This document shows positions 23,768-42,723 of a stretch of 64,000 nucleotides of DNA, piece after piece (position 1 is the stretch's first letter; each line of letters begins with the position of its first letter). The notes beneath the pieces were generated by a model. That model searched no databases. It worked only from the letters and a program-made list of their open reading frames with translations, and was not told the origin of the DNA. The position numbers and the translations under genes are program-made. The stretch comes from a marine bacterium B5-7 (GTDB lineage: Bacteria > Pseudomonadota > Gammaproteobacteria > Arenicellales > CAJQKF01), in the NCBI GenBank assembly GCA_021604525.1, contig BQJD01000009.1, forward strand, positions 62,001 through 126,000, given 5' to 3'.

Positions 23768-24661
23768 TCACAGATAAGGAGCAACGACATCAGCCAGTTC
23801 TGCCACGCACTCATCGACACTTCTTTTTGATGTGGTCAGGTGATAATCCGCCAGTCGATAGTCCGCCGAACGATCCTCCAGAATGAGTTTCAGGTCTTCC
23901 AGAGGCCGTTTGCTACTCTTCATGGGACGAATGTCACCCTGGCCGCGAACACGTTCCAGATGTTCTTCCGGTGATGCCTGTATCCAGACGGTGAAGTAGT
24001 TCGAACGTAGCAGGTTATAAGTTTCTTCCTCCGACACCAGACTGCCACCCGACTCGATGACAATCTGGCGATAATCTTCAAGCGTGCTTTTCAATGCTTC
24101 GTATTCATAGCGGCGATATTCTTTTTGACCGACCAGGGAAATTAACTCTCCAAGTTCCAGTCCGGAGATGTCCGTGATAACTTCGTCAAGGCGCACGAAG
24201 GGTACTTTGAATTGATTCGCAAGTCGCATACCGATAGTCGATTTGCCGGCGCCGCGCAGACCCACCAAGGCAACACCTATTCGTTCCGGTCTGGCTGCGT
24301 TGAATTCTTTTCTGAGTATCTTGAAGGCGTGTTCTTTCTCCGTTTCGCTCAGGGTGCCAAGCAGCTTGTCGAGTGGCGCGTAGTTTGTGGCTTCCTGTAC
24401 TTCACCTGGTAACAGAGAGAGCATTGGAACATCCAGTGCCCGCGCAATCTGCGACAGCAACACCACCGATATATTGGCTTCGCCCGATTCGACCCGTGCC
24501 AGGTATCTTTCAGAAACACTCGAATGATAGGCAAGGTTCTTGCGAGTCAGTCCTCGCCGCGAGCGGGCGGTACGAACCTGTACGCCGACACTACGCATGA
24601 GCGCTACGGCGTAATCGTCCGTTTCATTCTCATTGGCAACTAATTCTACGCGCTTGGTCAT
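23768..24661 (-). CDS. BzdR/BoxR-type regulator (HTH plus shikimate-kinase-like domain)
   Basis: This protein of about 297 aa joins an XRE-type HTH (VRTARSRRGLTRKNLAYHSS, YLARVESGEANIS) to a C-terminal shikimate-kinase-like domain with P-loop VGLRGAGKSTIG. This is the architecture of BzdR (anaerobic) and BoxR (aerobic), repressors that release DNA when the kinase-like domain binds benzoyl-CoA. I chose the ATG at 24661 because it gives the usual BzdR length; ATGs at 24697 and 24763 are possible, the last overlapping the upstream gene. It likely controls the bcr, kor/pad, ligase and importer promoters of this locus. Confidence 0.85.
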   Translation of the reverse strand: MTKRVELVANENETDDYAVALMRSVGVQVRTARSRRGLTRKNLAYHSSVSERYLARVESGEANISVVLLSQIARALDVPMLSLLPGEVQEATNYAPLDKLLGTLSETEKEHAFKILRKEFNAARPERIGVALVGLRGAGKSTIGMRLANQFKVPFVRLDEVITDISGLELGELISLVGQKEYRRYEYEALKSTLEDYRQIVIESGGSLVSEEETYNLLRSNYFTVWIQASPEEHLERVRGQGDIRPMKSSKRPLEDLKLILEDRSADYRLADYHLTTSKRSVDECVAELADVVAPYL

Positions 24662-24725
24662 CAGGTCCAGTCCGGGTTCAAGGGTCTCGGTAAACATAAC
24701 GTTGGACTGCCTGGAAAGCAATCTG

Positions 24726-27059
24726 TCAGCCGCCCGATATTGCCGGCACAAGCGTAATATCATCGCCGTTGTTGATGACGATATCGCGCTCTCCGATCAT
24801 CACCATCTCACCATTTACAGCGAATGTGAGATTTGCATCCTCAAGTCCCTCGGCATAATCAGGGAACTGTCTTTTAATCTCATCTTTTAGTTCAGCAAGA
24901 TCCGTTACAGGACGATCGACCACGAATTGATTTTCACCGAGTGATGGTGGTAGTGATACGGAAACAGCGAAACTACTAGTGGAGTTCAACAACTCTTTTC
25001 TCCAGCTCAATGCCGGTAAGCCGTTTTCATTGAGACCCGACACGCGGTAGAAGCGTAACTTCATTGCTTCGAATTGTTTCCGATCAATCTTTTCTCCTGC
25101 AAAAGGACCTGTTTGACTTGCTTCATCGAACCAACGATCGGGGAGGGTGTCGTCATCTGCGCCTAGACCGATACGAGCGTTTATCATTCGTTCGAGGCCG
25201 GTGATGTTTCGACCTATTTCGAGCAGACTGTCAGCGGTCCATTCAATACCTGTCAGTGCGCTCAAGTTCTCCGCAAAGTCGCTGCAGCCGGGCAGTGTGG
25301 GTGAGTTGAATAACTTGGTGTCGAACCGGCACATGCCGATCGCATCGCCCACCGCGAAGGTGTCTTCACAACGCCGTACCGCAATCTCCTTGCCTTCATA
25401 GGAATTGGGCAATGCCGATACCTTGCCGCCATACAGTTCTGTTTTGAATGCCTCGTCGTCGTTGATGCGTGCATTGATCTCGAGCGTCACGCGGTTGCGC
25501 AGATGATCCATGCCGCGTGTGGCCACAGCAAGTCCGAGCGCGAACGCCTTGAGGATGCGGCTGTCATGGGGGTCGGATTGAAACAGGCCCTTGACCGTCA
25601 TGCGATAGATGAGTGCCTCCTCGGGATAGTGGCCGCGTTCAACAGCGCGCGCTGAATCGGCGATTACATTTCCGAAGCCCTCGCGGCGAGCGGTCATGAA
25701 CAGCAGCTTCTCGACGGTACGAAAATCTCCCCAATTTAATTCCATGCCGCCGGTGTGACTGGTATCGATGATGCCTCGCTGATACAACTCCATGGCCCAG
25801 GCGATGGCGCCGCCGGTGCTGGAAGAATCAAGCCCAAGATCGTTGAGAATATTGTTCAGGCGCAGCACATGTTCGGGGCGCTCAACGCCAATGGCGGGTC
25901 CAAACTTGCCCAGGGTCACATATTCCGGGCCATCACCACGATCATAGCGATCAAATTCATTATTATCGTTGATGCCGCGGTAAAGGGAATCGTCAGAATG
26001 TTCGACGTCGGCTTGCGCAACATCGTAACTGGCGTTGCCCTTGAGCCCCTTGAGGGCACTGGCGCCCCAGCCGCCCTTGGCCTCAGGCGTCATGTCGTTC
26101 AGTGGTCGACAATGCACCGGACATTTGAAACAGCCGTCCATGCCGACTCTGTAGACATCGAAATTATCGGCGTCGAGAGATTCCTTCCACGTAGTTTCCT
26201 GATTGTTTAATGCGCCGATCGCACCGAGCACCCGACTCGGCTTGTAGAGAAATGGTGTGCCGACGGTTTTCAAGGCATTGCGAATAACGCTCGAGCCAGT
26301 AATTTTCTTGCCCAGTGCCTTGTTGGATTGTCTGAATGCTTCCGGAGGCGATGTCTTCGCCGGCTTGCCTAGAATCATGATGGCCTTGAGTCGATGAGCG
26401 CCCATTTTCGCGCCAGCGCCACCGCGTGCCCAGATTGCCTTGGGTCCACCCATAATACCGGAACACAGCACCTGGTTTTCACCGGCCGAGGTGATTCGCG
26501 CCATTGCCATATCGCGTCGCTCGGTACATTGAAAAGCTTCCTCGATGGCTTCGGTAAGCGCCATGTTATCCAGGCCAAGCCATGGCGAGGCATCATGGAA
26601 TCGCACCTTCTCACGGTTGATCTCAAGCAGTGTCCAGTCCTCATGTCGGCCGTACAGAACGATGTGATCGATACTACCTAGGCGCATGTAGGCAGGGAAG
26701 TAATCGCCACCGTTACTGTCCAGTATTGCGTTGCTGTCCGGTGAAAGGCTGGTTACATTGGCGCGTGCCGCGGATGAGGTATAGCCGGTCAGAATACCGG
26801 CGCCGAATATCAGCGGATTGGCGGGATCGAGTGGCTCACGCGTTTCATCCATCAGGTTATAAAGCAGATACATATTGGTACCACGCCCGCCAAGGAAGGT
26901 GTTCACAGCTTCCATCGGCAACCAGGCGCGACGTACCTGACGGGCGCTGAGGTCGACAAACAACACACAGCCCTGGGTATCATATTGCGGTCCTTCGCAC
27001 ATGCGCCTTATCAATGAGTCGACACGTTCTTCTATTGTGTTCACTTCTATTAAGGTCAT
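24726..27059 (-). CDS. Tungsten-type aldehyde:ferredoxin oxidoreductase with C-terminal MoaD/ThiS-like domain
   Basis: This 777-aa protein is longer than the usual AOR (about 610 aa). Residues about 25-620 are the AOR catalytic part: the GGRGTNMYLL cofactor region, FGAGILTGYTSSAARA, GGAGAKMG, and the [4Fe-4S] cysteines in GCFKCPVHC (near 310-317) plus GMCRFDTK (near 576). Residues about 695-777 look like a beta-grasp sulfur carrier ending in exactly Gly-Gly (DITLVPAISGG), the adenylation/thiocarboxylation site of MoaD and ThiS. Family members oxidise aldehydes to acids and reduce ferredoxin; in phenylacetate degraders one oxidises phenylacetaldehyde. It follows padD by 74 bases and precedes the BzdR-like gene. 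Confidence 0.85.
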   Translation of the reverse strand: MTLIEVNTIEERVDSLIRRMCEGPQYDTQGCVLFVDLSARQVRRAWLPMEAVNTFLGGRGTNMYLLYNLMDETREPLDPANPLIFGAGILTGYTSSAARANVTSLSPDSNAILDSNGGDYFPAYMRLGSIDHIVLYGRHEDWTLLEINREKVRFHDASPWLGLDNMALTEAIEEAFQCTERRDMAMARITSAGENQVLCSGIMGGPKAIWARGGAGAKMGAHRLKAIMILGKPAKTSPPEAFRQSNKALGKKITGSSVIRNALKTVGTPFLYKPSRVLGAIGALNNQETTWKESLDADNFDVYRVGMDGCFKCPVHCRPLNDMTPEAKGGWGASALKGLKGNASYDVAQADVEHSDDSLYRGINDNNEFDRYDRGDGPEYVTLGKFGPAIGVERPEHVLRLNNILNDLGLDSSSTGGAIAWAMELYQRGIIDTSHTGGMELNWGDFRTVEKLLFMTARREGFGNVIADSARAVERGHYPEEALIYRMTVKGLFQSDPHDSRILKAFALGLAVATRGMDHLRNRVTLEINARINDDEAFKTELYGGKVSALPNSYEGKEIAVRRCEDTFAVGDAIGMCRFDTKLFNSPTLPGCSDFAENLSALTGIEWTADSLLEIGRNITGLERMINARIGLGADDDTLPDRWFDEASQTGPFAGEKIDRKQFEAMKLRFYRVSGLNENGLPALSWRKELLNSTSSFAVSVSLPPSLGENQFVVDRPVTDLAELKDEIKRQFPDYAEGLEDANLTFAVNGEMVMIGERDIVINNGDDITLVPAISGG

Positions 27060-28009: not shown

Positions 28010-28656
28010 GATGCACCCTCCCATAGATAGTAAAAACCAGGCTCGGTGCCGAGTTCTTCATGCATTCGGAAGCTGCGTTGTTCGCGCAATAACTGCGATA
28101 CATGGCTGTCGGAATCCTCGATATCACCAAAGGTAAGCGCGTCGGCGATGCAGGAATTAACACAGGCCGGGGTTGCATCGACGTCTTCACCGGGGGTCAG
28201 ACCTGCCGCCAGACCAGCATCGATACGATCTATGCAAAATGTACATTTCTGCGCTACGTTGAGGCGTTCGCGATGCTCTCGTGACTGCTCGTGACTCATG
28301 TGGCCGTTTTTGTAAGCCTTGCCTATCGATGTGACTTTGAATCTCGCCTGATAGGGGCAGGCCACCATACAGTAGCCGCAGCCAATGCACAGATCGTAGT
28401 CAATAGTGACCAGGCCGTCGTCACGTTGGCGTGTGGCAGTTGATGGACATACTTCCATGCACGGTGGCTCACTGCAATGCATGCAACCCACCGGAACAAA
28501 AGTGCGCCGAACATCAGGATACTCACCCGACTCGATGTCAAGCACGCGTCGCCACTGTACACCTGGCGTGGTTGCATTGGCATGCTTGCAGGCGGCGGTA
28601 CAAGTCTGACAACCGACGCAGCGATTGAGGTCGGCGACCATCACGTAACGAGTCAT
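28006..28656 (-). CDS. padC: Four-cluster iron-sulfur subunit (PadC-like)
   Basis: This 216-aa DmsB/PhsB-type protein has four cysteine motifs for [4Fe-4S] clusters: CVGCQTCTAACK near residue 13, CMHCSEPPCMEVCP near 58, CIGCGYCMVACP near 90, and KCTFCIDR with CVNSC near 135-170. It carries electrons from the molybdopterin subunit to the membrane subunit. It overlaps both neighbours by four bases, so the three subunits are one translational unit. Confidence 0.85.
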   Translation of the reverse strand: MTRYVMVADLNRCVGCQTCTAACKHANATTPGVQWRRVLDIESGEYPDVRRTFVPVGCMHCSEPPCMEVCPSTATRQRDDGLVTIDYDLCIGCGYCMVACPYQARFKVTSIGKAYKNGHMSHEQSREHRERLNVAQKCTFCIDRIDAGLAAGLTPGEDVDATPACVNSCIADALTFGDIEDSDSHVSQLLREQRSFRMHEELGTEPGFYYLWEGAS

Positions 28657-31385
28657 CGGTTGTTCTCCAGCCGAGTGATAGCGACTCGCGCCAGATCGGC
28701 ACCGGAACCGCTCGAGTCGGTAAGATCCAGCAACATGGGAACCAGGGCATTCATGCTGGGCATGTCGAAATCACGCGCCAGCGGCGTGGCCCAGTGATCG
28801 AACTGGCCGACGAGCAGACAAGTATCGGGGCGCATTCCCTGGCTGGTGATCACCAGGCCGTGGGTCTCGGCCAGCGGCGAGCGGATACTCACGCGATCTC
28901 CGTCCTTCAACCCAAGCTCACGCGCGCGCGACGTATTCATGACCAGTCCGCCGTGTCCTTTAATGTTGCTTGCGACCTCGCGGATCATCTGTATGGCAAC
29001 ATTACTGCCCCAGCTATATTGCATGCTGCGCGTGGTGACCAGCCAGAGGGGGTAGTCATTGATATCGACATTGAAATGATGCGCAAGCGCTTCCTCCCAC
29101 ATACCGGGGAAGTTCTTCCAACTCGGAAAGGCCTCGTATTCATCGAGCTGTGCATCCCACCAGCTTATGCCCTGTGCATGCAATCGCCGACCCAACTCGG
29201 TGCCGATGCGCAGCAGGCGTTCCTGGTACGGCAGTTCGTAACGCAATCCCTGATCTTCCATCTCTGCAGTGAGGTACCAGCGGATACGCGGAAATGGCTT
29301 AAACCGATACCCGTGCTCGCGGTAGTAATCGAGACCGTGCTTATCCTGCCCGTCACTGATCTCGGCACTGGCGGCACGGCAAACGGCATCCCATATATTC
29401 TCGACCGAATGCGCTTCATGGGCATCGAGACTGAAATCATGGTCATTTACTTTCAATGCGACACCGGCCGCGCCACGATTGATGGCGTTGTTGTATTTTT
29501 CGAGTACGCCGCTGCGCCGCGCCAATTCTGTTGCGATCCAGGTCATGTCCTTCGATTCACCCTGCGCCTCAACTACCGGTTGTCGTAAAGCGAAGCCCTG
29601 ATGATCCCAGAACTGTTCGACGAATTTGGTACCACCGACACGGATCAGTTGCAGGCCTTCAAGATCAGTTCGGTCGGGCAGCAGGATGTCTGCCATATGA
29701 TTGGTTTCATCGTGGGTGTAGGCAAAACACACGGTGAAGGGGAAGCGCGACACGGTTTCCGTTATCTGGTTGGTATCCCAGAAAGACACTACCGGATTGG
29801 TGCGATAGACGAACCATAGATCGGGCTGTGTCGGTTTTGGCCAGTTATCGAACGGCTGATGTTGTTGCATCCAGGCGAGGTGAGTGGGCCCGAGTGCGAC
29901 GCTCCACGGTGAGTTGGATACCAGCGGTACCAGGGTACGGTTAGCGTTGCGAACTGCCGGATTCCCCACCCAGTTTTCAGCATCTGTCGGGTTCATCGGA
30001 TAGTCCATGAAACCGTCCGGCCCGGGCTTGACACTCAGGTTACGGTCGTTGGCCGGACGGTTTAAACGTACCGTGGTGCCGAGCGTGCCACCCGGTACTT
30101 CCAGTGCTCCAACCAGGCACGACAGCAGGGTTCTCCCCCAGCAGCAGTCATAGCCGCCCCAGCCGTTGTTGACGGTCTTGCCCAGTACCACCGCGACCGG
30201 ACGATAGGGCATGGTTCGACCGTCGATATCGATAGTCTCACCGATCCGGGCATGGTCGAGAAACTCGAATGCGATGCGTCGAATGTCCTCCGGCTTAACA
30301 TCGCAGATCTCGCCGGCCCACTGCGGCGTATAGGTTGCCACGTGCTCGATAAGTCGTGTCAGCGCAGGACTTGTTTCGATGTCCTGGTGAGTCCAGTGAT
30401 CGTCATCGGCACCACGCTCAATACCGCTTGCGATGAAACAGCCTTCAAGCGCCGGATCGATATTCGGTGTGTCGTGGGGAACAACTTGTTCAGAGCGAAG
30501 GTCGTATACCAGTGGTTTGCCGCTTTGCGAATCGCGCAGATAAAACCCGTTCGGCGCTATGAGATAGGGAGAGTTGGTGCGCTCTTTAAGGAAAGGCAAG
30601 TCAAGGTGGTCGAGTCGTTCGTTGAGCAAAACATGAATCAGTGCATACAGGAATGCAGCGTCGGTTTTGGGCCGTATCGGCACCCACTCGGCCGAACATG
30701 CGCCAGTGATCGACAGGTGCGGTTCGATCTGCACCCGTTTGATGCCGCGTGCCCTTGCATCGGCATGGCGTTTAACGCCACATACGCCACCCGATGCCTC
30801 GACGTTGAAGCCAAACGACAGGATGTAATCGCAGTTCGGTGTATCGGGTGCGACGGTGAATGCACGATGCCAGAATTCTCCATACAGATGCTCTGAGTGA
30901 TAACACTTGACCCCTTGACCGCTGCCAAAGCTGAAGTCGATGGGCCCTATCGCCGAGAGGAACGCGGGGAATGTGCCCATGTAGTAGGTGGGCGTGCCGC
31001 CGCCGCCGAAGCTCGCGGCAACTCGCGGATAACCGGATTCATCGACACCGCCGGCTTCATTGATGGTTCGAAGGCGGCTGGCGATTTCATCAAGCGCCTC
31101 GTCCCAGGTGATTGCTACAAAACCGGGATCCTCGTCCCGCCCCTTGTTGGGGTTGGTGCGCTTCATTGGCGTAAGCACACGGTTGGGATTATATATTTTC
31201 TGTATCAAGCCGAAGGCCTTGACGCAGACCTTGCCAGCAGATGGTGTGCAGTTAGCCGCATCGAAATTTCCCTCGACGCCCACGGCAACACCGTCTTCAA
31301 CCTGAACCCGCATCAAGTCAGGGCCGGCGACGCACTGGTAGCAGTAGGTCGGTACGGTATGCATCTTATGTGCTTTGCCCATCAT
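28653..31385 (-). CDS. padB: Molybdopterin oxidoreductase, phenylacetyl-CoA:acceptor oxidoreductase-like (PadB)
   Basis: This 910-aa protein is a DMSO-reductase-family catalytic subunit without a Tat signal, so it acts in the cytoplasm. The N-terminal cluster region reads YCYQCVAGPD then NCTPSAGKVCVKAFG; the middle has FGGGGTPTYYMGTFPAFL, GQGVKCYHSEHLYGEFWHR and FGFNVEASGG; the C-terminal molybdopterin domain starts at WLVTTRSMQYSWGSN. The pattern matches my memory of PadB of Thauera/Azoarcus, which oxidises phenylacetyl-CoA by four electrons to phenylglyoxylate with a quinone. Another arylacetyl or aryl-CoA substrate is possible. The third cysteine of the usual CX2CX3C motif is absent (CVAGPD). 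Confidence 0.75.
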   Translation of the reverse strand: MMGKAHKMHTVPTYCYQCVAGPDLMRVQVEDGVAVGVEGNFDAANCTPSAGKVCVKAFGLIQKIYNPNRVLTPMKRTNPNKGRDEDPGFVAITWDEALDEIASRLRTINEAGGVDESGYPRVAASFGGGGTPTYYMGTFPAFLSAIGPIDFSFGSGQGVKCYHSEHLYGEFWHRAFTVAPDTPNCDYILSFGFNVEASGGVCGVKRHADARARGIKRVQIEPHLSITGACSAEWVPIRPKTDAAFLYALIHVLLNERLDHLDLPFLKERTNSPYLIAPNGFYLRDSQSGKPLVYDLRSEQVVPHDTPNIDPALEGCFIASGIERGADDDHWTHQDIETSPALTRLIEHVATYTPQWAGEICDVKPEDIRRIAFEFLDHARIGETIDIDGRTMPYRPVAVVLGKTVNNGWGGYDCCWGRTLLSCLVGALEVPGGTLGTTVRLNRPANDRNLSVKPGPDGFMDYPMNPTDAENWVGNPAVRNANRTLVPLVSNSPWSVALGPTHLAWMQQHQPFDNWPKPTQPDLWFVYRTNPVVSFWDTNQITETVSRFPFTVCFAYTHDETNHMADILLPDRTDLEGLQLIRVGGTKFVEQFWDHQGFALRQPVVEAQGESKDMTWIATELARRSGVLEKYNNAINRGAAGVALKVNDHDFSLDAHEAHSVENIWDAVCRAASAEISDGQDKHGLDYYREHGYRFKPFPRIRWYLTAEMEDQGLRYELPYQERLLRIGTELGRRLHAQGISWWDAQLDEYEAFPSWKNFPGMWEEALAHHFNVDINDYPLWLVTTRSMQYSWGSNVAIQMIREVASNIKGHGGLVMNTSRARELGLKDGDRVSIRSPLAETHGLVITSQGMRPDTCLLVGQFDHWATPLARDFDMPSMNALVPMLLDLTDSSGSGADLARVAITRLENNR

Positions 31386-31841: not shown

Positions 31842-32354
31842 CTACTCGAGTTCGTTGGGGGGGTCGGGATCGTCATCCCAGTTGTCGTCAGGAGGTGGAT
31901 AACGGTTTCGCCACTTGGCGACCTTTTCCACATGCTCACGTTCTTCTGCTGCATACTCTGCGGCCAGTTGTTTCATGTCGTCATTGCCATTACCCTCGGC
32001 CACGCGCTGGAAGAAGTCGACCGCGCGCTGTTCGGCTTTCAATACCAGAGTTAACGCCTGGTAGGGCGTCATCAGGTAGTGGGTGGCGGAATAATCGACC
32101 GCCTCTGGTGGGTCTTCGTCGCCGAAGTCTAATTCCCACGGGTCGATTGCGGGCAATGATTCGCCCTCGGCCGCCACTTCAAGACGATGGGCATGCTCGC
32201 TTTCCAGCCGGGCCATTTCTCGGAACAGGGCTGCCACTTCGGGGTTGTTGGTGGTTTCCATCTGCTCAGCGAACACGGTGTAGCGCTCGGTTGCTTCTTC
32301 TTCGATAGCGAGGGCGTAGGCAAGAAACTCTGCACAGGTGTTAATCGTTTTCAT
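31842..32354 (-). CDS. Rubrerythrin/ferritin-like diiron protein
   Basis: This 170-aa four-helix protein has two EXXH-type diiron motifs: EEEATERYTVFAEQME and ARLESEHAHRLEV in the first half, LKAEQRAVDFFQ and AAEEREHVEKVAKW in the second, and an acidic proline-rich tail. It lacks the rubredoxin domain. Its ATG overlaps the korB stop (ATGA), so it is co-translated with an oxygen-sensitive ferredoxin oxidoreductase. A protective role against peroxide or oxygen is a reasonable inference. Confidence 0.75.
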   Translation of the reverse strand: MKTINTCAEFLAYALAIEEEATERYTVFAEQMETTNNPEVAALFREMARLESEHAHRLEVAAEGESLPAIDPWELDFGDEDPPEAVDYSATHYLMTPYQALTLVLKAEQRAVDFFQRVAEGNGNDDMKQLAAEYAAEEREHVEKVAKWRNRYPPPDDNWDDDPDPPNELE

Positions 32355-33199
32355 GCTGACATCCTGAATGCCGTCTCCAACTCATGTGCGGATTCGGCGC
32401 GGGGTTCGAACTCGGGCGTAAACGGCACGCGTTCACCCTTGAACAATGTGCCGATAAAAAAATTGTCGTCGGTCATCAGGCGGCGAGCGGCAACTGCGGG
32501 GTCGGCGGTAGCGACCACGGGTGCCGGATGGACGATTTTCTTCCAGTCACGCTGCTCAGGACGGAAGGTGATGCATGGACTTAAAATCTGTACAAACGAA
32601 AACCCTGGGTGCTGAACCGCCTCGGTGATAACACGGGCTGCGCCGTTCGGGTCGTTGCTTGAGGCGCGGGCGATGAAGTTGGCACCGGAAGCCAGGGCAA
32701 TAACCAGTGGATAGAACGGATTAATGCGGGTGCCATGAGGTGTCAGCTTGCCACGCTCCCAATCGGGTTCAGTGGTAGGCGATGCCTGTCCCTTGGTCAT
32801 GCCGTAAACCTGGTTATCCATAACCACGTAGGTCATATCGACATTGCGTCGACAGGCCTGCATAAAATGATTTCCGCCGATGGAGAACCCATCGCCGTCG
32901 CCGCCGGCAACCATAACAGTCAGATCGGGACGAGTGATCTTCAGACCAATGCCCACCGGTAGCGCGCGTCCGTGGACTGCGTGGAAACCATAAACATTGA
33001 GGTAGGCGGGAATGCGTGACGAGCAGCCGATCCCCGATATCACCACGACGCGTTCGGGGTCGAGCTGCATCGCCGCCATGGCTTTGGTGAATGCCGACAA
33101 TACGCTGAAGTCCCCACAGCCAGGACACCACACCGGTTTGGTATCGGACTTATAATCCTTCGGCTTCAGAGCAGCCGTGCTGGTTGATGTCTGGTCCAC
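32351..33199 (-). CDS. korB: 2-oxoacid:ferredoxin oxidoreductase beta subunit (KorB-like)
   Basis: This 282-aa subunit binds thiamine diphosphate: GGDGDGFSIGG followed by VVMDNQVYGMT, and has WCPGCGDFSVL at the N-terminus. The start is a GTG at 33199 that overlaps the korA stop by one base. In Thauera-type benzoate degraders KorAB oxidises 2-oxoglutarate and reduces the ferredoxin that feeds benzoyl-CoA reductase. Because padBCD is in the same operon here, phenylglyoxylate is an alternative substrate. Confidence 0.85.
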   Translation of the reverse strand: MDQTSTSTAALKPKDYKSDTKPVWCPGCGDFSVLSAFTKAMAAMQLDPERVVVISGIGCSSRIPAYLNVYGFHAVHGRALPVGIGLKITRPDLTVMVAGGDGDGFSIGGNHFMQACRRNVDMTYVVMDNQVYGMTKGQASPTTEPDWERGKLTPHGTRINPFYPLVIALASGANFIARASSNDPNGAARVITEAVQHPGFSFVQILSPCITFRPEQRDWKKIVHPAPVVATADPAVAARRLMTDDNFFIGTLFKGERVPFTPEFEPRAESAHELETAFRMSA

Positions 33200-34935
33200 T
33201 AGTATTTCCCCCTTGTCTTGATATCGGCCACAACCTGTTCTGGACGGATCGGCAACGGCCCAGGCTGGGCCATCGACATGAATTCGAACTTCTGCGGATA
33301 AAAGGCCTGCAGATAATGAAAGAACTGGGCGCCATGACTCTGCTCGACCACCAGCGCGCCGGTGACGCCGGCAAGTGCTTGTTGCATGCGTTCGGGTTGC
33401 ACTGGCAATAAAAGTCGCGGCGCTATGATGCGTATATCGATACCATCACTTAGCAACATCGCACGCGCTTCACGTACCGGTGCAAGGCTCGAACCCCAAG
33501 TGATCACTGCGAATTCGCCTTCACCTTCGATCAACGCCCAGTGATCGCCATAATCGTGATTGACCAGTTTGTCGCGGCGCTTGTCGAGTTGCTGGCGGTG
33601 ATCTTCAGCGCGGCTCGATGGAATGCCGCTTGGAGCATGTTCGAGGCCGTCGGCAGTGTACTGGCAACCCGCCGTGCCGGGTAATGCCATCGGCGAGACG
33701 CCGTTACCACCAACGGCATAGCGCTGATAACCTTCCATCGGTGTTTCTTGTATCGACCGACCCGATACAAATGCGACGTCGGCGGGTCGTTCGATGATGG
33801 CACGTGTTTGACCAAGATTTTGGTCGGATAACACGATCGCGGCAGTTTGTAATTTCTCCGCCAGATGAATCGCCCACTGAGTAGTGAACAAGCAGTCCGC
33901 TACCGACATCGGCGCCAGGACCAGATGGGGTGCATCACCGTGCAGACCGTAGATGGCGATATTCAGATCGCTCTGTTCGGACTTAGTCGGAATGCCGGTG
34001 GATGGTCCGCCGCGCATGACATCGACAACTACTATGGGCGTTTCCGATGCCACCGCAAGGCCGATGGACTCGGTCATCAAGGCAAGTCCCGGACCCGAGG
34101 TAGCAGTCAACGACGGCGTGCCGCCGAACGATGCACCGATCAATTGATTTACTGAGGCAAGCTCGTCCTCGGCCTGTACCAGGATGCCGCCCACTTGCTC
34201 AAGGGCTGGCGCCATCCATTCAAGTAATTCGGTGGCTGGGGTAATCGGGTAGGCGGCGACAAAACGCACACCACCGCGAATCGCGCCGAGTCCTGCCGCT
34301 TCATTACCACTGATGTTCCACAAGTCGCATTGCTTCTCACTGGATAATGAGAGTTGATATGAACCCTGATGCTTACCCGTATGCGCGGCGCCGGAGTCGA
34401 CACAGGCAACGCTTGAATCGATGGCTGCCTGACCTTTGCGCTTCAACAATGATTCGAGAACCTGGTGCAGAGGCTCAAGAGGTAATCCGATGAGCGAGCA
34501 GACGACACCGAGGACGACCATATTCTCCCGTCCGCCATCTGTTTCGCGAGCAATCTGCTTAAGCGGTAATTCAAGAGTACGTGCACCGGAGTCAGTAAAT
34601 GCCTGCGGTGGTTCAGCGTCGGTCTCACCAATGATGAGACTTTGTGTGCCGAGTGGAATCTCGGCTCTGAAACGATCTGCGTTGAGCCAGTCTATAGCCA
34701 GCAGAATATCAAACTCATTGTCGTGGCTCTCGACTGGGAAGGTTGCCAGACGCAGCATGGCTGCTGCCTCGCCACCACGTATCTGCGGCCCGGCTGAACG
34801 CGTCATGATACCGAACAGTCCAGCTCTTCCGGCTGCCTCCAGCAACATGCTACCGGCGGTCATCACGCCCGCACCGCCGCTGCCGATCAAGGCGATGGAA
34901 ATACTCGATGACGCTCGATCCTTATGTTCTTCCAC
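33199..34935 (-). CDS. korA: 2-oxoacid:ferredoxin oxidoreductase, fused gamma-alpha subunit (KorA-like)
   Basis: This 578-aa protein joins a gamma domain (residues about 10-190, GSGGAGVMTAGSMLLEAAGR, SAGPQIRGGEAAAMLR) to an alpha domain (about 210-578, YPITPATELLEWM, ATSGPGLALMTESIG, RGGPSTGIPTKSEQSDL). This gamma-alpha fusion is the form of KorA in denitrifying aromatic degraders. The start is a GTG at 34935 with GAGG upstream. It begins the minus-strand operon and faces the bcr operon across a 126-base divergent promoter region, so the supplier and consumer of reduced ferredoxin share one control region. Confidence 0.87.
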   Translation of the reverse strand: MEEHKDRASSSISIALIGSGGAGVMTAGSMLLEAAGRAGLFGIMTRSAGPQIRGGEAAAMLRLATFPVESHDNEFDILLAIDWLNADRFRAEIPLGTQSLIIGETDAEPPQAFTDSGARTLELPLKQIARETDGGRENMVVLGVVCSLIGLPLEPLHQVLESLLKRKGQAAIDSSVACVDSGAAHTGKHQGSYQLSLSSEKQCDLWNISGNEAAGLGAIRGGVRFVAAYPITPATELLEWMAPALEQVGGILVQAEDELASVNQLIGASFGGTPSLTATSGPGLALMTESIGLAVASETPIVVVDVMRGGPSTGIPTKSEQSDLNIAIYGLHGDAPHLVLAPMSVADCLFTTQWAIHLAEKLQTAAIVLSDQNLGQTRAIIERPADVAFVSGRSIQETPMEGYQRYAVGGNGVSPMALPGTAGCQYTADGLEHAPSGIPSSRAEDHRQQLDKRRDKLVNHDYGDHWALIEGEGEFAVITWGSSLAPVREARAMLLSDGIDIRIIAPRLLLPVQPERMQQALAGVTGALVVEQSHGAQFFHYLQAFYPQKFEFMSMAQPGPLPIRPEQVVADIKTRGKY

Positions 34936-35061: not shown

Positions 35062-36132
35062 GTGAAAACGGGTAAAAGATGGCTTATGACGGCTGTCAAT
35101 ACGGCATTTACTCCAGAGTCGTTCACACCCGGTGAACCGGAAGATGACGAGGTCCTTGTGGAAATCGCCGGTTGTGGTGTCTGTCATACCGACCTCGGCT
35201 ATCTCTACGACGGAGTCCGCACCAATCTTCCCCTGCCTTTGACCCTTGGTCACGAAATCAGCGGACACGTAATTGCCACCGGCGATAACTGTCGTGACTG
35301 GGATAGAGCAGCAGTAGTCATTCCAGCAGTTATTCCCTGTGGAGTTTGTGATCTATGTCAACGCGGACTCGGAACGATCTGCCGTGCACAGAAAATGCCC
35401 GGCAACGATATTGAAGGTGGCTTCGCAACTCACATCACGGTTCCGGCTCATGGGCTATGCAAGGTCGATGAGCAACGTCTCGATAAATCCGGTCTCGGAT
35501 TGGCCGACGTTTCAGTGCTGGCCGATGCGGTCACCACGCCTTATCAGGCAGCCATACTCGCCGACATCAAACCGGGAGATTTTGCCGTGGTGGTTGGAAT
35601 TGGCGGCGTAGGCGGTTATGCGGTGCAGATTGCCCATGCCATGGGCGCCACGGTGGCGGCTATTGATGTAGACGATGGCAAACTCGAACAGATGTCGAAG
35701 TACGGTGCCGCGTTAACCATTAATCCTTTGACAACCGATAGTCGTGGTCTGAAAAAAACGCTTCGCGACTTCGCCGTCGAGCAAGGATTACGCGTTAGCG
35801 AATGGAAGTTGTTCGAATGTTCCGGAACCACTGCCGGACAGGATACCGCTTATTCACTGCTGACCTTCGGTGCACACATGGCGGTAGTTGGTTTTACCAT
35901 GGACAAGACCGAAGTACGTCTGTCCAACCTCATGGCGTTCAGTGCCCGTTTGCAGGGCAACTGGGGCTGTCTGCCCGAACATTATCCCGCCGCACTCGAC
36001 CTGGTGATGTCCGGCAAGGTGCAGATGAAACCATTTGTGAAGCAATACCCGCTGGATGAGATCAACGCGGTATTTGAAGCGGCACATCGTCATGAATTAA
36101 CCGAACGGGCAATCATGGTGCCCGGATCTTGA
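35062..36132 (+). CDS. had: 6-hydroxycyclohex-1-ene-1-carbonyl-CoA dehydrogenase
   Basis: This 356-aa zinc-type medium-chain dehydrogenase has the catalytic zinc region [14 protein letters not shown] and GHEISGHV, the structural zinc cysteines in [15 protein letters not shown], and the NAD motif [14 protein letters not shown]. Its position before oah, dch and bcr is that of Had, which oxidises 6-hydroxycyclohex-1-ene-1-carbonyl-CoA to the 6-oxo compound. The start is a GTG at 35062, six bases after GGAGG. It is the first gene of the plus-strand operon. Confidence 0.9.
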
Positions 36133-36160
36133 GCTTAGCCAACGACATTAATCAAGGGGT

Positions 36161-37303
36161 ATGAACATGACAGAGATGACCGCTCGAATTATCGACCACA
36201 CCGCACCGACACACCTGATCGATCACAATCTGGTGCCAGAAACGATATGCGAAGGCATTCTGTTCGAAAAACGGCCAGCGAAAGATACCAAGGGTAATAC
36301 GGTCGCAGGGTTGTATAACGCCTGGATCACCCTCGATAACCCTAAACAGTTCAACTCCTATACTACCGAGATGGTCAAAGGAGCGATTCTGGCGTTTCGC
36401 GCGGCCAGCAACTGTCGTGACGTTAACGCGATCGTGTTCACCGGTACGGGCGACAAGGCTTTTTGTACCGGAGGAAACACCAAGGAATACGCCGAGTATT
36501 ATGCTGGCAACCCGCAGGAGTATCGACAGTACATGCGGTTGTTCAATGACATGGTGACATCGATACTGATCTGCGACAAGCCGGTGGTCTGTCGGGTTAA
36601 CGGCATGCGCATTGGCGGTGGTCAGGAGATCGGCATGGCCTGCGATTTCACCGTTACCCAGGATCTCGCCAACTTCGGCCAAGCCGGACCCAAGCACGGT
36701 TCGGCGGCAATCGGTGGCTCAACCGACTTTCTACCGGTCATGATCGGCGCCGAACAGGCGATGGTATCGGGCACACTGTGCGAGCCGTTTTCCGCGCACA
36801 AGGCCTACCGGCTCGGCATCTGTAGCGAGATCGTACCGGCACTGAAGATCGATGGAAAATTTATACCCAATCCAACTGTGATTACCGACCGCATGTTGGA
36901 TGAATTCGGTCGTATCGTTCACGGCGAATTCAAAACGGGCGATGATTTCAAGCAGGGTCGCGAGCTGGTCAAAAGCGGGGAAGTTGATCTTTCGCTGCTG
37001 GATGAAAAAGTCGATGCGCTATGCGCCAAACTGCTCATGACATTTCCCGAATGCATGACCAAGAGCGTTGAGGAATTACGCAAACCTAAACTCGATGCGT
37101 GGAATCGTAATCACGAGAACTCTCGCGCCTGGCTGGCCCTGAACATGATGAACGAAGCACGCGCGGGCTTTCGCGCATTCAATGAAGGTAATCGGGAAGC
37201 CGGTCGCGAGATCGACTTCGTGGCGTTACGCCGGGCGCTGGCTCGTGGCGTGCCGTGGACACCGGAACTGATCGATAGCCTGATGCCTGGAGGTAAGGGC
37301 TGA
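36161..37303 (+). CDS. oah: 6-oxocyclohex-1-ene-1-carbonyl-CoA hydrolase
   Basis: This 380-aa crotonase-fold enzyme has the oxyanion regions FCTGGNTKEYAEYYAGNP and RVNGMRIGGGQEIGMACDF and the typical QAGPKHGSAAIGGSTDFLP. It is longer than ordinary crotonases, as Oah/BamA proteins are. It adds water twice and opens the ring of 6-oxocyclohex-1-ene-1-carbonyl-CoA to 3-hydroxypimelyl-CoA, the last ring-bound step. This gene is the common marker for anaerobic aromatic degradation. Confidence 0.93.
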   Translation: MNMTEMTARIIDHTAPTHLIDHNLVPETICEGILFEKRPAKDTKGNTVAGLYNAWITLDNPKQFNSYTTEMVKGAILAFRAASNCRDVNAIVFTGTGDKAFCTGGNTKEYAEYYAGNPQEYRQYMRLFNDMVTSILICDKPVVCRVNGMRIGGGQEIGMACDFTVTQDLANFGQAGPKHGSAAIGGSTDFLPVMIGAEQAMVSGTLCEPFSAHKAYRLGICSEIVPALKIDGKFIPNPTVITDRMLDEFGRIVHGEFKTGDDFKQGRELVKSGEVDLSLLDEKVDALCAKLLMTFPECMTKSVEELRKPKLDAWNRNHENSRAWLALNMMNEARAGFRAFNEGNREAGREIDFVALRRALARGVPWTPELIDSLMPGGKG

Positions 37304-37304
37304 C

Positions 37305-38075
37305 ATGATTGCGCAGGTCCTCAAGGTTTCGGTAGAGCGCGACGATCGTTTGCTGCGTCTTACATTGTCTCGTCCCAAGGCCAACATCGTCGATGCCGAA
37401 ATGATCGATCTGATGCAATCCGCGCTGGATGAACACGTAATGCGAACCGATCTGTTGGCAATCTTGATCGATGCCGACGGCCCACACTTCAGCTTTGGCG
37501 CGAGTGTCGAAGAGCATCTACCTGATCGCTGTGCCGCGATGCTGTCGAAGATCCACAAACTGGTCATGAGCCTGATCGATTCGCCCGTACCGGTGCTGGC
37601 GGCAGTACAGGGTATGTGCCTTGGTGGTGGGATGGAAGTGGTACTCGGCGCCAACCGTATTTTCGCATCCGACACCGCCAGCTTCGGCCAGCCGGAAATA
37701 AAGCTCGGCGTGTTCGCGCCAGCAGCCTCGTGCCTGCTTCCCGAGCTTATCGGTCAAGCACGCGCCGAAGACCTGTTGTTCACTGGCCGTACGATCGATG
37801 CAGCAACTGCTCATGAATACGGTCTCGTTGATGTGATTGCCAAGTCGCCCGCCGATGCAGCAATCGAATACTTCGATAAGCATTTATCGACGCTAAGCGG
37901 ATTCTCGCTACGCCAGGCAGTCCAAGCGGCACGCGCCGACTTCTCCGCCTCTATGCGTGACAAGCTAATGCGCGTCGAGCGGCAATACCTTGAACAGCTC
38001 ATGGCCGGTCGTGATCCGGTCGAAGGGCTGCATGGTTTTCTTGAAAAACGTACCCCGAACTGGGAGCACTGCTGA
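37305..38075 (+). CDS. dch: Cyclohexa-1,5-diene-1-carbonyl-CoA hydratase
   Basis: This 256-aa crotonase-family hydratase has FSFGASVEEHLPD and VQGMCLGGGMEVVLGANRIF, with ASFGQPEIKLGVFAPAAS. It hydrates the dienoyl-CoA made by benzoyl-CoA reductase to 6-hydroxycyclohex-1-ene-1-carbonyl-CoA. It begins one base behind oah and overlaps bcrC by one base. Confidence 0.92.
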   Translation: MIAQVLKVSVERDDRLLRLTLSRPKANIVDAEMIDLMQSALDEHVMRTDLLAILIDADGPHFSFGASVEEHLPDRCAAMLSKIHKLVMSLIDSPVPVLAAVQGMCLGGGMEVVLGANRIFASDTASFGQPEIKLGVFAPAASCLLPELIGQARAEDLLFTGRTIDAATAHEYGLVDVIAKSPADAAIEYFDKHLSTLSGFSLRQAVQAARADFSASMRDKLMRVERQYLEQLMAGRDPVEGLHGFLEKRTPNWEHC

Positions 38076-39235
38076 TGAGTACAAGCACTATCATCGAACG
38101 TTGTAACGAGCTTTTCGAAGATCTCGATTTCACAGCCGCACGGGAATGGAAGGCCGCCGAAGCCGGTCGCAAGGTGATCGGTTTCATGCCGGTCTATATC
38201 CCGGAGGAAATCATTCATGCTGCCGGCATGTTGCCGCTTGGGGTTGTCGGCGGCGGCGACCAGCTCGAAGTTATTCATGGCGATGCCTATTATCAGAGCT
38301 ATATCTGCCGCATCCCCCGCTCAACTATCGAACTTGGTGTAACCAAGCGCCTGGACTTTGTCGATGGCATGTTGTTTCCGAGTATTTGTGATGTTATCCG
38401 TAACCTGTCGGGCATGTGGAAGATGCTTTATCCGGATGTCTATGTTCGTTACTTCGATGTTCCGCAGAACTACCTAAACGATATTGGTGGCGAATATTAC
38501 CGTCATGAACTCGAGGAGCTGCGCGACGGCCTTGCGGAACTCAACGGTAATGAAATTACTGATGAAGCGCTCAACGCGTCAATCAAAATATATAACGAAA
38601 GACGCGCATTGGTGCGTGAGATTTATGCATTTCGTAGTGAAACTCCATGGCGGGCGCCGGCTGCAGAAGTCTATCTCTTGATGCGAGCTGGACTGGTATT
38701 ACCGGTGGAAGAACATATCGTGATGATGCGTGACTACTTGGAGGCTGCCATTGCAGAAGATCGTCCCATGCGTGACAGTTGCCGAGTCGTCATCAGTGGA
38801 TCATTCTGCGAACAACCGCCGCTTAACCTGATCAAGTCAATCGAAATGTCCGGTTGTTACATCGTCGATGACGACTATCTGCTGGTCAACCGCTGGCTTC
38901 TCGAAGATGTTGATGCCGACGGTGACCCGTTGTTGAACCTCGCACTGGCCTTCATCCACAAGAGCGCCGATACAGCCGCCAAGTATTGCACCAGTAAGGA
39001 GGATGTCGGGCAGTTTCTGCTGGAATCGGTTCGCAACTCGAATGCTGAGGGTGTGATCTTCGCGGCACCGAGTTTCTGTGATCCGGCGCTACTCGAACGT
39101 CCGATGCTCGCTGATCGCATGAGCGAGCACAACATCCCACACATTTCTTTCAAGTACGCAGAAAACTCGGGTCAAATGCAGCCCATCAGGGAACAGGCGG
39201 GGACCTTCGCCGATTCCATCAAACTCTGGAGCTAG
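38075..39235 (+). CDS. bcrC: Benzoyl-CoA reductase subunit C (class I)
   Basis: This 386-aa protein belongs to the 2-hydroxyacyl-CoA dehydratase D-component family. Cysteines in SYICRIPRS, PSICDVIRN and APSFCDPALLERP are the likely cluster ligands. With BcrB it forms the substrate-reducing half of the enzyme, which transfers two electrons to the benzoyl-CoA ring. The gene order C-B-A-D is the Thauera order. Confidence 0.93.
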   Translation: MSTSTIIERCNELFEDLDFTAAREWKAAEAGRKVIGFMPVYIPEEIIHAAGMLPLGVVGGGDQLEVIHGDAYYQSYICRIPRSTIELGVTKRLDFVDGMLFPSICDVIRNLSGMWKMLYPDVYVRYFDVPQNYLNDIGGEYYRHELEELRDGLAELNGNEITDEALNASIKIYNERRALVREIYAFRSETPWRAPAAEVYLLMRAGLVLPVEEHIVMMRDYLEAAIAEDRPMRDSCRVVISGSFCEQPPLNLIKSIEMSGCYIVDDDYLLVNRWLLEDVDADGDPLLNLALAFIHKSADTAAKYCTSKEDVGQFLLESVRNSNAEGVIFAAPSFCDPALLERPMLADRMSEHNIPHISFKYAENSGQMQPIREQAGTFADSIKLWS

Positions 39236-39237
39236 CC

Positions 39238-40527
39238 ATGAATACAGCAGCGAAAACTGAAGTTGTCAAAGAATCTTCAATGGTGCGACAGAAGGAGATG
39301 ATCGCGCGAAACTATGATGCGCTGACCAGTACTGCCGAGACAGGCAAGAAGGTTGCTTCAACCTTTGTGCCGGGAAATCTCAATGAGTTGATTATGTCAT
39401 TCGGCATGCTCAATAACCTACCCGAGATCAATGCAATAAACAACGGCATGCGCCGCAAGAGTGGCATGATGATCATGGATGCCGAACGCCGTGGCCACTC
39501 CGAGGATGTTTGTACCTACGTCAAGGCAGACATCGGTCAAATGTCTAAAGGCAACATTGCACCCAACGGCAAACCCATGCCGCCGCCGGATCTGCTACTG
39601 CTGTCGTACACCGGTTGTTTCACATTCATGAAGTGGTTCGAGTTGCTGCGACATGAGTACGGCTGCGAAACAGCCATGCTGCACGTACCGTATACCGGCG
39701 ATGGTGTCATTACCGACAACATGCGCAACTATGTCGTCAAACAACTCAAGGAGGAGGTAATTCCCAAACTAGAGCGCGTTAGTGGCGTCAAGTTCGACAT
39801 TGATCGCTTACGCGAGAACCTGCGTCTGTCTGCGCAGGCAGAAGACGATCTGGTATGGGTTTTGCAAAGCGCACGCAACGTTCGATCACCCATTGATGCT
39901 TACTTCGGCGGCGTGTATTACATCGGTCCAATATTCAGCGCTTTCCGAGGCACGCAGGAGGCGGTCGACTATTACCGCGTGTTGCGTGGCGAGATCGAGG
40001 AACGCATCAAAAAAGGACTGGGTCCAATTACACCTGAAGGCGACATGCCCGAGGAGAAGTACCGGTTGGTTGTCGAAGGCCCACCGAACTGGACCAGTTT
40101 CCGTGAGTTCTGGAAGATGTTTTACGATGAAGGCGCCGTGGTGGTGTCGAGTACATACACTAAAGTGGGTGGCGTCTACGACCTCGGTTTCCGTCACGAT
40201 CCAGACAACCCAATCGAATCCCTGGCTGATTACTGTCTTGGTTGTTACACCAATCGCAACCTGCCAACGCGGGTGGAGATGCTGGAAAACTACATCGAGG
40301 AATACCAGGCCGACGGTCTGTTGATCAACTCGATAAAAAGCTGTAACAGCTTCTCCGCCGGACAGCTTCTGATGATGCAGGAAGTGGAAAAGCGCACCGG
40401 CAAGCCGGCGGCGTTCATCGAAACCGATCTGGTCGATCCGCGTTATTTCTCTGCAGCCAATGTCAAGAATCGTCTGGAAAGCTATTTTCAGATGGTCGAC
40501 CAAAAACGCAGCGCGAAAGCCGCATAG
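39238..40527 (+). CDS. bcrB: Benzoyl-CoA reductase subunit B (class I)
   Basis: This 429-aa partner of BcrC has cysteines in LLSYTGCFTFMKW, YCLGCYTNRNLP and SIKSCNSFSAGQ. BcrB and BcrC carry the benzoyl-CoA site and cluster(s) on the acceptor side. It begins two bases behind bcrC. Confidence 0.93.
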   Translation: MNTAAKTEVVKESSMVRQKEMIARNYDALTSTAETGKKVASTFVPGNLNELIMSFGMLNNLPEINAINNGMRRKSGMMIMDAERRGHSEDVCTYVKADIGQMSKGNIAPNGKPMPPPDLLLLSYTGCFTFMKWFELLRHEYGCETAMLHVPYTGDGVITDNMRNYVVKQLKEEVIPKLERVSGVKFDIDRLRENLRLSAQAEDDLVWVLQSARNVRSPIDAYFGGVYYIGPIFSAFRGTQEAVDYYRVLRGEIEERIKKGLGPITPEGDMPEEKYRLVVEGPPNWTSFREFWKMFYDEGAVVVSSTYTKVGGVYDLGFRHDPDNPIESLADYCLGCYTNRNLPTRVEMLENYIEEYQADGLLINSIKSCNSFSAGQLLMMQEVEKRTGKPAAFIETDLVDPRYFSAANVKNRLESYFQMVDQKRSAKAA

Positions 40528-40536
40528 GAGTTTGAC

Positions 40537-41862
40537 ATGAAATGTTTCGTTGGAATCGATCTGGGTTCGACTACTACCAAGGCGGTTGTTATGGATGACA
40601 ACGGTCAATCGCTAGGACATGGCATTACCAACTCACGCTCTAACTACGATACCGCCAGCAAAGTGGCGAAGATGGAAGCATTGGTCAGTGCGCGGCTCAC
40701 GATGTTTCGGCGCGCGCTGAAAAGTATCGATGAGCTCAATGGCATGGTCGACGATGTAATCGACGGGCTGGAACGCAACTTTCGGCTGGAGCTGTTTCTT
40801 GAACAGCTTGGCGACCTTCGTCAGACCTGTATTAAACAAGTTCGCCAGCCGGGTTATACCGGCCAATGGGATCAGCTAAGCGAAGCGCTCGACGAGATTT
40901 TCAACCGTCTCGAACAATCATTGTTGGCGCTGTTCGCACCAGGTGCAGAACGCAAGTCGGATTTTTTCCGGGATCTGGCCGGCGCCGAATATATGAACGT
41001 CGGTGAAAAGGTCGCGGCCGAGAGTGGTCTTGCCTTCGACAATCTGCTGAACGTCTACGATAAATCGATTATCGAGGTGGAAAATCGTCCACCGGAAACG
41101 GCATTGGCTGAAAAGTTTCTAATCGCCCTCGATCGGGTATTCACCGAGAGAAAAATTCCCGCCGACACACAGATTGTACGCAGTCGAATCGAGGAAGCGC
41201 TCGGCATCGATTTCGAAGAAACCTACACTGTGGGTACCGGCTACGGTCGTGTTCGACTGCCATTCCCGAAGGAGCATATCCGCTCGGAAATTCTCTGCCA
41301 CGGGCTCGGTGCTCATCTCATGTATCCCAAGACGCGTACTGTACTCGATATCGGTGGCCAGGATACCAAGGGCATCCAGGTTGACGGTAACGGCATCGTC
41401 GCCAACTTCCAGATGAACGATCGATGTGCCGCCGGCTGTGGTCGCTATCTCGGCTATATTGCCGATGAGATGAACATGGGTCTGCATGAGCTTGGGCCGA
41501 TGGCGATGAAGGCGACACGCACTGTTCGAATCAATTCCACCTGCACGGTATTCGCCGGTGCCGAACTGCGCGACCGACTGTCGTTGGGGGAGAAGCGTGA
41601 GGACATCATCGCCGGTCTGCATCGTGCGATCATCCTGCGCGCCATGTCGATCATCTCGCGCTCGGGTGGTATCACCGACGAATTTACTTTCACCGGTGGG
41701 GTGGCCAAGAACGAAGCTGCGGTCAAGGAGCTTCGTCTCCTCGTTAATGAAAACTATGGCGATGTCACCATCAACATCGACCCCGATTCGATTTACACAG
41801 GCGCTCTTGGCGCCGCGGAGTTTGCGCGACGCGCCGGCACCGGCGTACCGCAATCGCACTGA
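40537..41862 (+). CDS. bcrA: Benzoyl-CoA reductase subunit A (ATPase, class I)
   Basis: This 441-aa protein is an ASKHA-type ATPase activator. Nucleotide motifs are [16 protein letters not shown] at the N-terminus and [15 protein letters not shown] near residue 270; cluster ligands are in [11 protein letters not shown] and [12 protein letters not shown]. An insertion of about 150 residues lies between the two nucleotide motifs, as in Thauera BcrA. With BcrD it couples hydrolysis of two ATP to electron transfer from ferredoxin. AGGAG precedes the start. Confidence 0.92.
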
Positions 41863-41880
41863 TTTACGGAGCACACGGTC

Positions 41881-42723
41881 ATGACTATTACAGCAGGTAT
41901 CGATGTCGGCACCGGGGCAATCAAGGCAGCCCTTTTTGAAGTCGATGACAAGGGCAACCACTGGCTTGCCAGGCGTAATCTGAAAATTCGTCAACGGGAT
42001 CCGTTGCAACTGGCCACCCAGGCCTACGAGGAGACACTTGCCGAGGCTGGCTTCGAACCTGAACAGGTGCACTATGTCGCCACCACTGGTGAAGGCGAAA
42101 ACGTATCGTTCGCCACCGGCCACTTTTATTCGATGACCACTCACGGTCGGGGAGCGTTGTATCTCGAACCGGAATCCCGTTCGGTACTCGATATCGGCGC
42201 CTTACACGGCCGCGCCATCAAAGTGGATGAGCGAGGTAAGGTGTTGACCTATCGAATGACCAGTCAATGTGCATCGGGTTCGGGACAATTTCTTGAAAAC
42301 ATTTCCCGCTACCTTGGTATTGCACAGAACGAGATTGGTGAGCTTTCAAAGCAAGCAGATGATCCCGAAACAGTGTCCAGCATCTGCGCCGTGCTTGCCG
42401 AAACCGATGTGATCAACATGGTATCGCGCGGCATTAGTGCACCAAACATACTTCGCGGAATTCACTTGTCGATGGCCGATCGGTTGGCCAAGCTGTTGAG
42501 GGTGATCAAGGCGGATGACGGCATCACCTTCTTAAGCGGTGGACTTGCGCTTGACGAAGGTCTGCTCGACGCCCTGAATCATTCATTAGGAAAAATGAAG
42601 CTGAAAATTACTGCCAGGAATCATCCCGATTCGCCCTTCGCTGGTGCGATCGGAGCTGCTATCTGGGGCGCCTTCCGGTATGAAAAGCTGTTGCAGTCCG
42701 GCATGTTGGCCAAAGCATCCTGA
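41881..42723 (+). CDS. bcrD: Benzoyl-CoA reductase subunit D (ATPase, class I)
   Basis: This 280-aa ATPase partner of BcrA has GIDVGTGAIKAALFEVD, SVLDIGALHGRAIKVDE, and cluster cysteines in TSQCASGSGQFLENISR and SICAVLAETDVIN. BcrA and BcrD share one bridging [4Fe-4S] cluster. The motif GALHGRAI replaces the GGQDTK of BcrA, the usual asymmetry of class I enzymes. Confidence 0.92.
   Translation: MTITAGIDVGTGAIKAALFEVDDKGNHWLARRNLKIRQRDPLQLATQAYEETLAEAGFEPEQVHYVATTGEGENVSFATGHFYSMTTHGRGALYLEPESRSVLDIGALHGRAIKVDERGKVLTYRMTSQCASGSGQFLENISRYLGIAQNEIGELSKQADDPETVSSICAVLAETDVINMVSRGISAPNILRGIHLSMADRLAKLLRVIKADDGITFLSGGLALDEGLLDALNHSLGKMKLKITARNHPDSPFAGAIGAAIWGAFRYEKLLQSGMLAKAS

Follow-up and report, generated by a model that had tools for sequence, protein, structure and literature searches.

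Why should an enzyme of the aldehyde oxidoreductase (AOR) family end in a domain that resembles the sulfur carrier MoaD, and does this domain serve the enzyme that bears it? The question is raised by a gene in a 64,000-nucleotide stretch of DNA (the window) from the marine gammaproteobacterium B5-7, for which an initial annotation, made from the sequence alone, had described an AOR fused to a MoaD/ThiS-like carrier. MoaD, whose usual partner is MoaE, is adenylated and thiocarboxylated and then transfers its sulfur together with MoaE.

The fusion is already known, and the gene described here is a further member. Iyer, Burroughs and Aravind reported in 2006 a MoaD domain fused to the C-terminus of an AOR in Azoarcus and suggested that AOR-linked MoaD serves synthesis of the tungsten cofactor, mentioning no other genus and giving the fusion one sentence and a table, without tests (PMC1779556). 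All eight Aromatoleum/Azoarcus genomes that we analysed (G372-G379) carry a fused AOR of about 784-820 amino acids together with at least one unfused AOR, so the clade described below is very probably theirs. In comparison with the Azoarcus fusion, the present gene is gammaproteobacterial, and the family to which it belongs extends over several classes, with an invariant Gly-Gly end and an altered active site. A search of the open-access literature, in which few subscription papers were covered, returned no experiment on an AOR-MoaD fusion.

Results

Gene and domain architecture

The interval given by the initial annotation proved right, the frame lying on the minus strand (Table 1); the plus strand of the same interval contains many stops. 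The fusion itself is confirmed: AFOR_N, AFOR_C and ThiS all score above their Pfam cut-offs within one frame, the ThiS match (PF02597) covering residues 713-777 (E-value 3.3e-7; 31.2 bits, cut-off 22.5). The C-terminus reads ...VPAISGG, and inspection of the codons gave GGC GGC as the final two. The AOR part, which had been placed as ending near residue 620, in fact extends to about 690, where AFOR_C finishes and shortly before the first strand of the tail (residues 699-703). The full-length model (pLDDT 87.6, pTM 0.92) matches 1AOR, 9MQX and 8C0Z in a fold search, with TM-scores of about 0.9 by target length (0.91 for 1AOR), and separately it also matches MoaD; BamB ranks below the AORs. Both the domains (AFOR_N and AFOR_C) and the fold of the AOR/WOR family are therefore present in the fused protein.

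Table 1. Features of the fused gene and its surroundings, in positions of the window.
Feature	Position	Strand	Basis or remark
AOR-MoaD fusion gene	24726..27059	minus	777 aa + stop, single open frame
AFOR_N, residues 32-231, pterin-binding	26367..26966	minus	Pfam PF02730, E 2.1e-47
AFOR_C domains 2 and 3, residues 247-690	24990..26321	minus	Pfam PF01314, E 5e-87
MoaD-like beta-grasp tail, about residues 697-777	24729..24971	minus	ThiS PF02597, predicted fold, dN/dS
C-terminal Gly776-Gly777	24729..24734	minus	GG in 97/97 complete fused ORFs, 93 distinct
Cys310, Cys313, Cys317, [4Fe-4S] ligands by alignment (PfAOR C288/C291/C295)	26109..26132	minus	alignment
Cys577, fourth [4Fe-4S] ligand by alignment	25329-25331	minus	alignment
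Val381, aligned with PfAOR Glu313	25917..25919	minus	V/I/T in 50/50 fused, E in 5/5 classical AORs
His498, at the place of PfAOR Tyr427	25566..25568	minus	H in 50/50 fused, Y in 5/5 classical AORs
His519, PfAOR His448, kept	25503..25505	minus	alignment
Thr268, PfAOR Thr243, kept	26256-26258	minus	alignment
BzdR-like regulator (anaerobic benzoate catabolism), immediately following the AOR gene	23768..24763	minus	NF006015 over cut-off
Putative membrane subunit	27134-28024	minus	no family model matched; NrfD-like nature read from sequence
FeS subunit	28006-28656	minus	Pfam/NCBIfam
Molybdopterin oxidoreductase (DMSO reductase family), catalytic	28653..31385	minus	Pfam/NCBIfam
FlK-type (fluoroacetyl-CoA-specific) thioesterase family member	31391-31792		family match
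Rubrerythrin/ferritin-like protein	31842-32354		beside 2-oxoacid oxidoreductase genes
2-oxoacid:acceptor oxidoreductase beta + alpha	32351..34935	minus	TIGR02177, TIGR03710 over cut-off
Benzoyl-CoA pathway: had, then oah, dch, bcrCBAD-like	35062..42723	plus	had by TIGR03201 over cut-off

The tail as a MoaD-type domain

The initial annotation had read the tail as a beta-grasp domain of about 80 residues ending exactly in Gly-Gly, and the Pfam match, the predicted fold and the terminal glycines all agree with this. Modelled alone from an alignment of 38 sequences, the tail adopts a beta-grasp (pLDDT 82), and in the comparison with MoaD and ThiS that had been suggested the solved structures closest to it are E. 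coli MoaD chains, 1NVI_D and 1FM0_D (E 8e-6 and 5e-5 in Foldseek; TM 0.73-0.80). Among the top five is also 1JWB_D, from the MoeB-MoaD complex, the 1NVI, 1FM0 and 1JWB matches all being MoaD from MoaD-MoaE or MoeB-MoaD complexes; SAMP1 appears among the fold matches as well. A search of the PDB with a profile made from nothing but fused tails retrieves E. coli MoaD at 3.5e-5. The nearest NCBIfam models are those of MoaD, yet the tail stays under their cut-offs, scoring 24.6 bits against 66.15 for the MoaD-specific TIGR01682, and we therefore regard it as a divergent MoaD-like domain rather than an orthologous MoaD.

Across 35 aligned tails, whose identity to the query tail is 33-55%, no column is invariant except those of the two terminal glycines. 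Gly-Gly closes every one of the 97 complete fused ORFs, which comprise 93 distinct sequences, a set that leans to the nearer relatives because selection stopped at the best 80; homologs without this end, which would have spoken against a carrier, are absent from it. Median dN/dS over 384 pairs is about 0.19 for the tail, which is thus under purifying selection, and 0.15 for the body. Since Gly-Gly is kept in all 93 sequences and forms the only invariant part of the tail, the domain is best read as a working sulfur carrier. Sequence and model data together support a carrier of MoaD type whose Gly-Gly end is strictly conserved, placed on the very polypeptide that requires the pterin.

Distribution and origin of the fusion

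The annotation had recommended looking for the same fusion in other AORs, and it was readily found. A second species of the genus carries it at 76% identity, and a protein search of 369 genomes of the class recovered full-length fusions in seven further genomes (61-69% identity) and one more that a contig end truncates. Among named genomes, a scan located 151 encoding stretches; the 78 best loci, retained for analysis, nearly all align up to residue 777 and belong to Aromatoleum, Azoarcus, Sulfuritalea and other Rhodocyclales, Sedimenticola, Motiliproteus, Amphritea, Geothermobacter and Geobacteraceae. Judged by these searches, the fusion spans beta- and gammaproteobacteria and Desulfobacterota. 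Sulfuritalea-type genomes hold two fused AOR genes a few kb apart, tandem paralogs that both end in Gly-Gly (L049, L051, L057, L065, L068, L070).

In a maximum-likelihood tree the fused proteins form one group with 100/100 support, on a long branch (2.04) and with the root not known, which makes a single fusion event the simplest reading. No near unfused sister was detected at E < 1e-70 in the phylum of the window. The nearest unfused relative, L118, comes from another phylum, has a histidine at the place of Tyr427 and ends without a tail, its contig starting inside the gene; because it shares this histidine with the fused clade, the change in the active site probably preceded the tail. Several unfused relatives that share about 36-47% identity with L118 and belong to the same phylum as the Geobacteraceae members have a small gene for a Gly-Gly-ending carrier at most about 1 kb downstream (L130-L132, L134-L136, L139, L147). 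HMM scores of the candidate parents of the tail (MoaD, ThiS and the downstream carrier of related AORs) are all low and close together.

An altered active site

Residues were mapped by alignment to PfAOR together with 50 fused and five classical AORs from this and related genomes. The four cysteines aligned with the [4Fe-4S] ligands are invariant across the 50 fused and five unfused proteins. Two of the four second-shell residues are replaced throughout the fused clade, a change that the initial annotation had missed: the place of Glu313 is taken by Val in 39, Ile in seven and Thr in four of the 50 sequences, and that of Tyr427 by His in all. According to the passages of a 2025 review on which we draw here, Thr243, Glu313, Tyr427 and His448 mark the aldehyde-oxidizing AORs and have a role in the acid-base catalysis of aldehyde oxidation, Tyr-to-His is reported for two enzymes of the AOR/WOR family, and the second-shell residues are absent from BamB and YdhV, which have a Cys ligand to the metal instead (PMC12096430). 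The fused clade thus departs from the residue set of aldehyde-oxidizing AORs sensu stricto, and loss of the Glu with Thr and His kept fits none of the types described in those passages. No Cys stands in the fused protein at the active-site positions compared, which were set by PfAOR rather than by BamB and its Cys322. As Glu313 and Tyr427 are replaced clade-wide, the function implied by the name aldehyde oxidoreductase is not assured; from the residues present, the enzyme may oxidize aldehydes in a different way or catalyse another reaction.

Genomic setting

Upstream of the fused gene lie, in order, genes for the membrane, FeS and catalytic subunits of a DMSO-reductase-type enzyme, a thioesterase, a rubrerythrin-like protein and the beta and alpha subunits of a 2-oxoacid oxidoreductase; divergent from this operon runs a block that begins with had (6-hydroxycyclohex-1-ene-1-carbonyl-CoA dehydrogenase), followed by oah-, dch- and bcrCBAD-like genes, assigned by gene order and sequence resemblance. 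By these gene assignments the fused AOR lies in an anaerobic benzoyl-CoA/arylacetate cluster, and a role of the enzyme in this catabolism may be inferred. If the regulator is read from its first ATG, its frame and the end of the AOR gene overlap; a later Met codon is probably the true start.

The catalytic/FeS/membrane trio is found near the fused AOR in several relatives. Among the best 78 of the 151 stretches, a phenylacetate-CoA ligase-like gene occurs nearby in 20 and korA/korB homologs in 34-36. Phenylacetyl-CoA:acceptor oxidoreductase is an established membrane-bound Mo-FeS enzyme (cited in PMC9765128). Given the ligase-like gene and korA/korB in the relatives, we infer that the trio is probably phenylacetyl-CoA:acceptor oxidoreductase-like. 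Other relatives, mostly Geobacteraceae, have TRAP-transporter genes near the fused AOR instead of the aromatic genes, so one substrate for all members is not assured. A gene for an FlK-type thioesterase is near the fused AOR in several relatives too, and in about 20 relatives a rubrerythrin-like homolog (mostly 34-44% identity) stands between the 2-oxoacid oxidoreductase genes and the fused AOR.

Partner proteins and other carriers

This genome has a single MoaE, whose gene adjoins a canonical moaD, and a MoeB-type adenylyltransferase encoded on another contig; no E1 gene is present in the cluster of the fused AOR. Its two other AORs are followed, at 70 bp and at about 1.4 kb, by separate genes for Gly-Gly-ending ThiS-domain proteins, and all three AORs consequently have a carrier fused or nearby. 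A private carrier for every AOR is not the rule, since counts of ThiS domains and AORs were uncorrelated over 35 genomes (rho -0.24, p 0.16). We also rejected the idea that the fused tail is the only MoaD of the cell: every genome examined has at least one further ThiS/MoaD-domain match beside the fused tail, so the tail may be redundant.

MoaE gave no match in six of 35 fusion genomes (G387, G090, G392, G393, G396, G397), some of which are possibly incomplete assemblies; one of the six is an isolate of Geothermobacter hydrogeniphilus (G393). The same gap was noted in 2009 for Geobacter metallireducens, where the working of an apparently incomplete molybdopterin synthase was a stated question (PMC2700814). 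In the Geothermobacter isolate, genes for a MoaD-like and a ThiF/MoeB-like protein follow an AOR of a different type (L151). Stop-to-stop frames of about 550-640 amino acids that contain full-length ThiS-domain matches (G373-G378, G064, G372, G380; for example L149) possibly represent another ThiS fusion, or mere long open frames in GC-rich DNA.

Discussion

Proposed mechanism

We propose, with a probability of roughly 0.6 for the reading as a whole, that the fused protein is a tungstopterin enzyme from a non-classical clade of the AOR/WOR family, tungsten being the presumed metal, and that its C-terminal domain is a MoaD-type carrier activated and used in cis. MoeB would adenylate the terminal Gly777, and a sulfur derived from cysteine would convert it into a thiocarboxylate. 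The tail would then act as the small subunit of molybdopterin synthase and, paired with the general MoaE or, in genomes that have none, with another partner, add the dithiolene sulfurs to cyclic pyranopterin monophosphate. As the tail is tethered to the apo-enzyme, the pterin would be made beside the same enzyme and preferentially used by it. A tungsten-bis-pterin needs four sulfurs, so a single tail would have to be recharged repeatedly. Activation and sulfur transfer would follow established MoaD chemistry, and self-supply in cis is plausible. A precedent exists in Thermococcus kodakarensis, where UblB, of the MoaD family, is involved in forming the tungsten cofactor of the WOR enzyme GOR (PMC11323500). 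Against the proposal stand the further ThiS/MoaD domains of every genome examined, the six fusion genomes in which MoaE was not detected, the uncorrelated counts of carriers and AORs, and the position of moeB outside this cluster.

Alternative explanations

A shared pool of carriers is the alternative that deserves most attention, although we consider it rather doubtful: the fusion would be a device for co-expression, and the tail would count as part of the cell's MoaD pool and deliver sulfur to any pterin enzyme, including the neighbouring one of DMSO-reductase type. Such an arrangement would suit the single common MoaE of most genomes and the presence of that second Mo/W enzyme in the cluster, and carriers are partly redundant in Thermococcus (PMC11323500). 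Against it, the fused tail is never made apart from its enzyme, and the fusion persists across distant lineages despite separate carriers in the same genomes, which suggests that tethering matters. A bolder version of the tethered carrier, in which the enzyme performs a step of anaerobic arylacetate/benzoyl-CoA metabolism other than the oxidation of simple aldehydes, the tail builds the dithiolene at the apo-enzyme and lineages lacking MoaE use a new synthase partner, seems to us unlikely in this complete form.

Carriers of this type can also modify proteins (PMC11323500), and with SAMP1 among the fold matches the tail could be imagined as a modifier of the SAMP kind, activated by an E1 and joined through its Gly-Gly by an isopeptide bond, or as a docking regulator; its sequence and fold are nearest to MoaD and the annotated neighbours show neither a JAB/JAMM peptidase nor a dedicated E1, which leaves this very improbable. 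The initial annotation had also considered a tail cut off after translation. Release by a protease as a free MoaD would have a parallel in MoaX, a MoaD-MoaE fusion of the same pathway whose cleavage in vivo is a precondition of its activity; there, however, MoaD is N-terminal and the cut frees its Gly-Gly (PMC4326299), whereas in the fused AOR Gly-Gly is already the C-terminus and cleavage is unnecessary. Nothing that we found supports cleavage, the junction is modelled with confidence in the full-length prediction (mean pLDDT 80-97 over blocks 661-710), and we hold release to be, if anything, slightly more improbable than conjugation. Most of the tail varies in sequence, as might be expected if it were purely structural, a means of oligomer assembly or of docking an electron partner with Gly-Gly as a relic; yet Gly-Gly is conserved better than anything else in the tail, contrary to what one expects of a relic, and we take a purely structural role to be the least probable reading of all.

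Relation to known systems

That MoaD is a separate gene in known aromatic AOR clusters, as initially stated, holds for AorABC with aorD/aorE and fails for its paralog, the Azoarcus MoaD-AOR fusion. AorABC of Aromatoleum aromaticum resembles the present system in its AOR family membership, in the MoaD-like maturation factors of its operon and in its link to aromatic metabolism; it differs in that aorD and aorE are separate, in having three subunits and in belonging to a type that keeps all four second-shell residues. The passages of the 2025 review used here describe a clade AOR1 as a putative second tungsten protein of A. aromaticum and related bacteria and make no mention of a fused carrier on it (PMC12096430); compared by description, AOR1 is probably the same clade, the fused protein being the only second AOR in most of the Aromatoleum genomes covered by our search. 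Class I WOR likewise pairs an AOR-type large subunit, WorL, with a nearby ThiS-like protein, WorX, predicted to act in pterin biosynthesis, but WorX is a separate gene, and in the portion of this 2026 WOR classification on which we rely a MoaD fusion is not mentioned (PMC13328260).

Conclusions

The fusion genomes without detected MoaE bear on the question, raised for G. metallireducens, of an incomplete molybdopterin synthase (PMC2700814). Loss of the Glu/Tyr pair sets apart a not yet characterised branch of presumed tungsten enzymes among aromatic degraders. Should the tail act in the way suggested here, a metalloenzyme would carry part of its own cofactor factory, and the client-specific delivery of tungsten- versus molybdenum-pterin would become addressable in one polypeptide.
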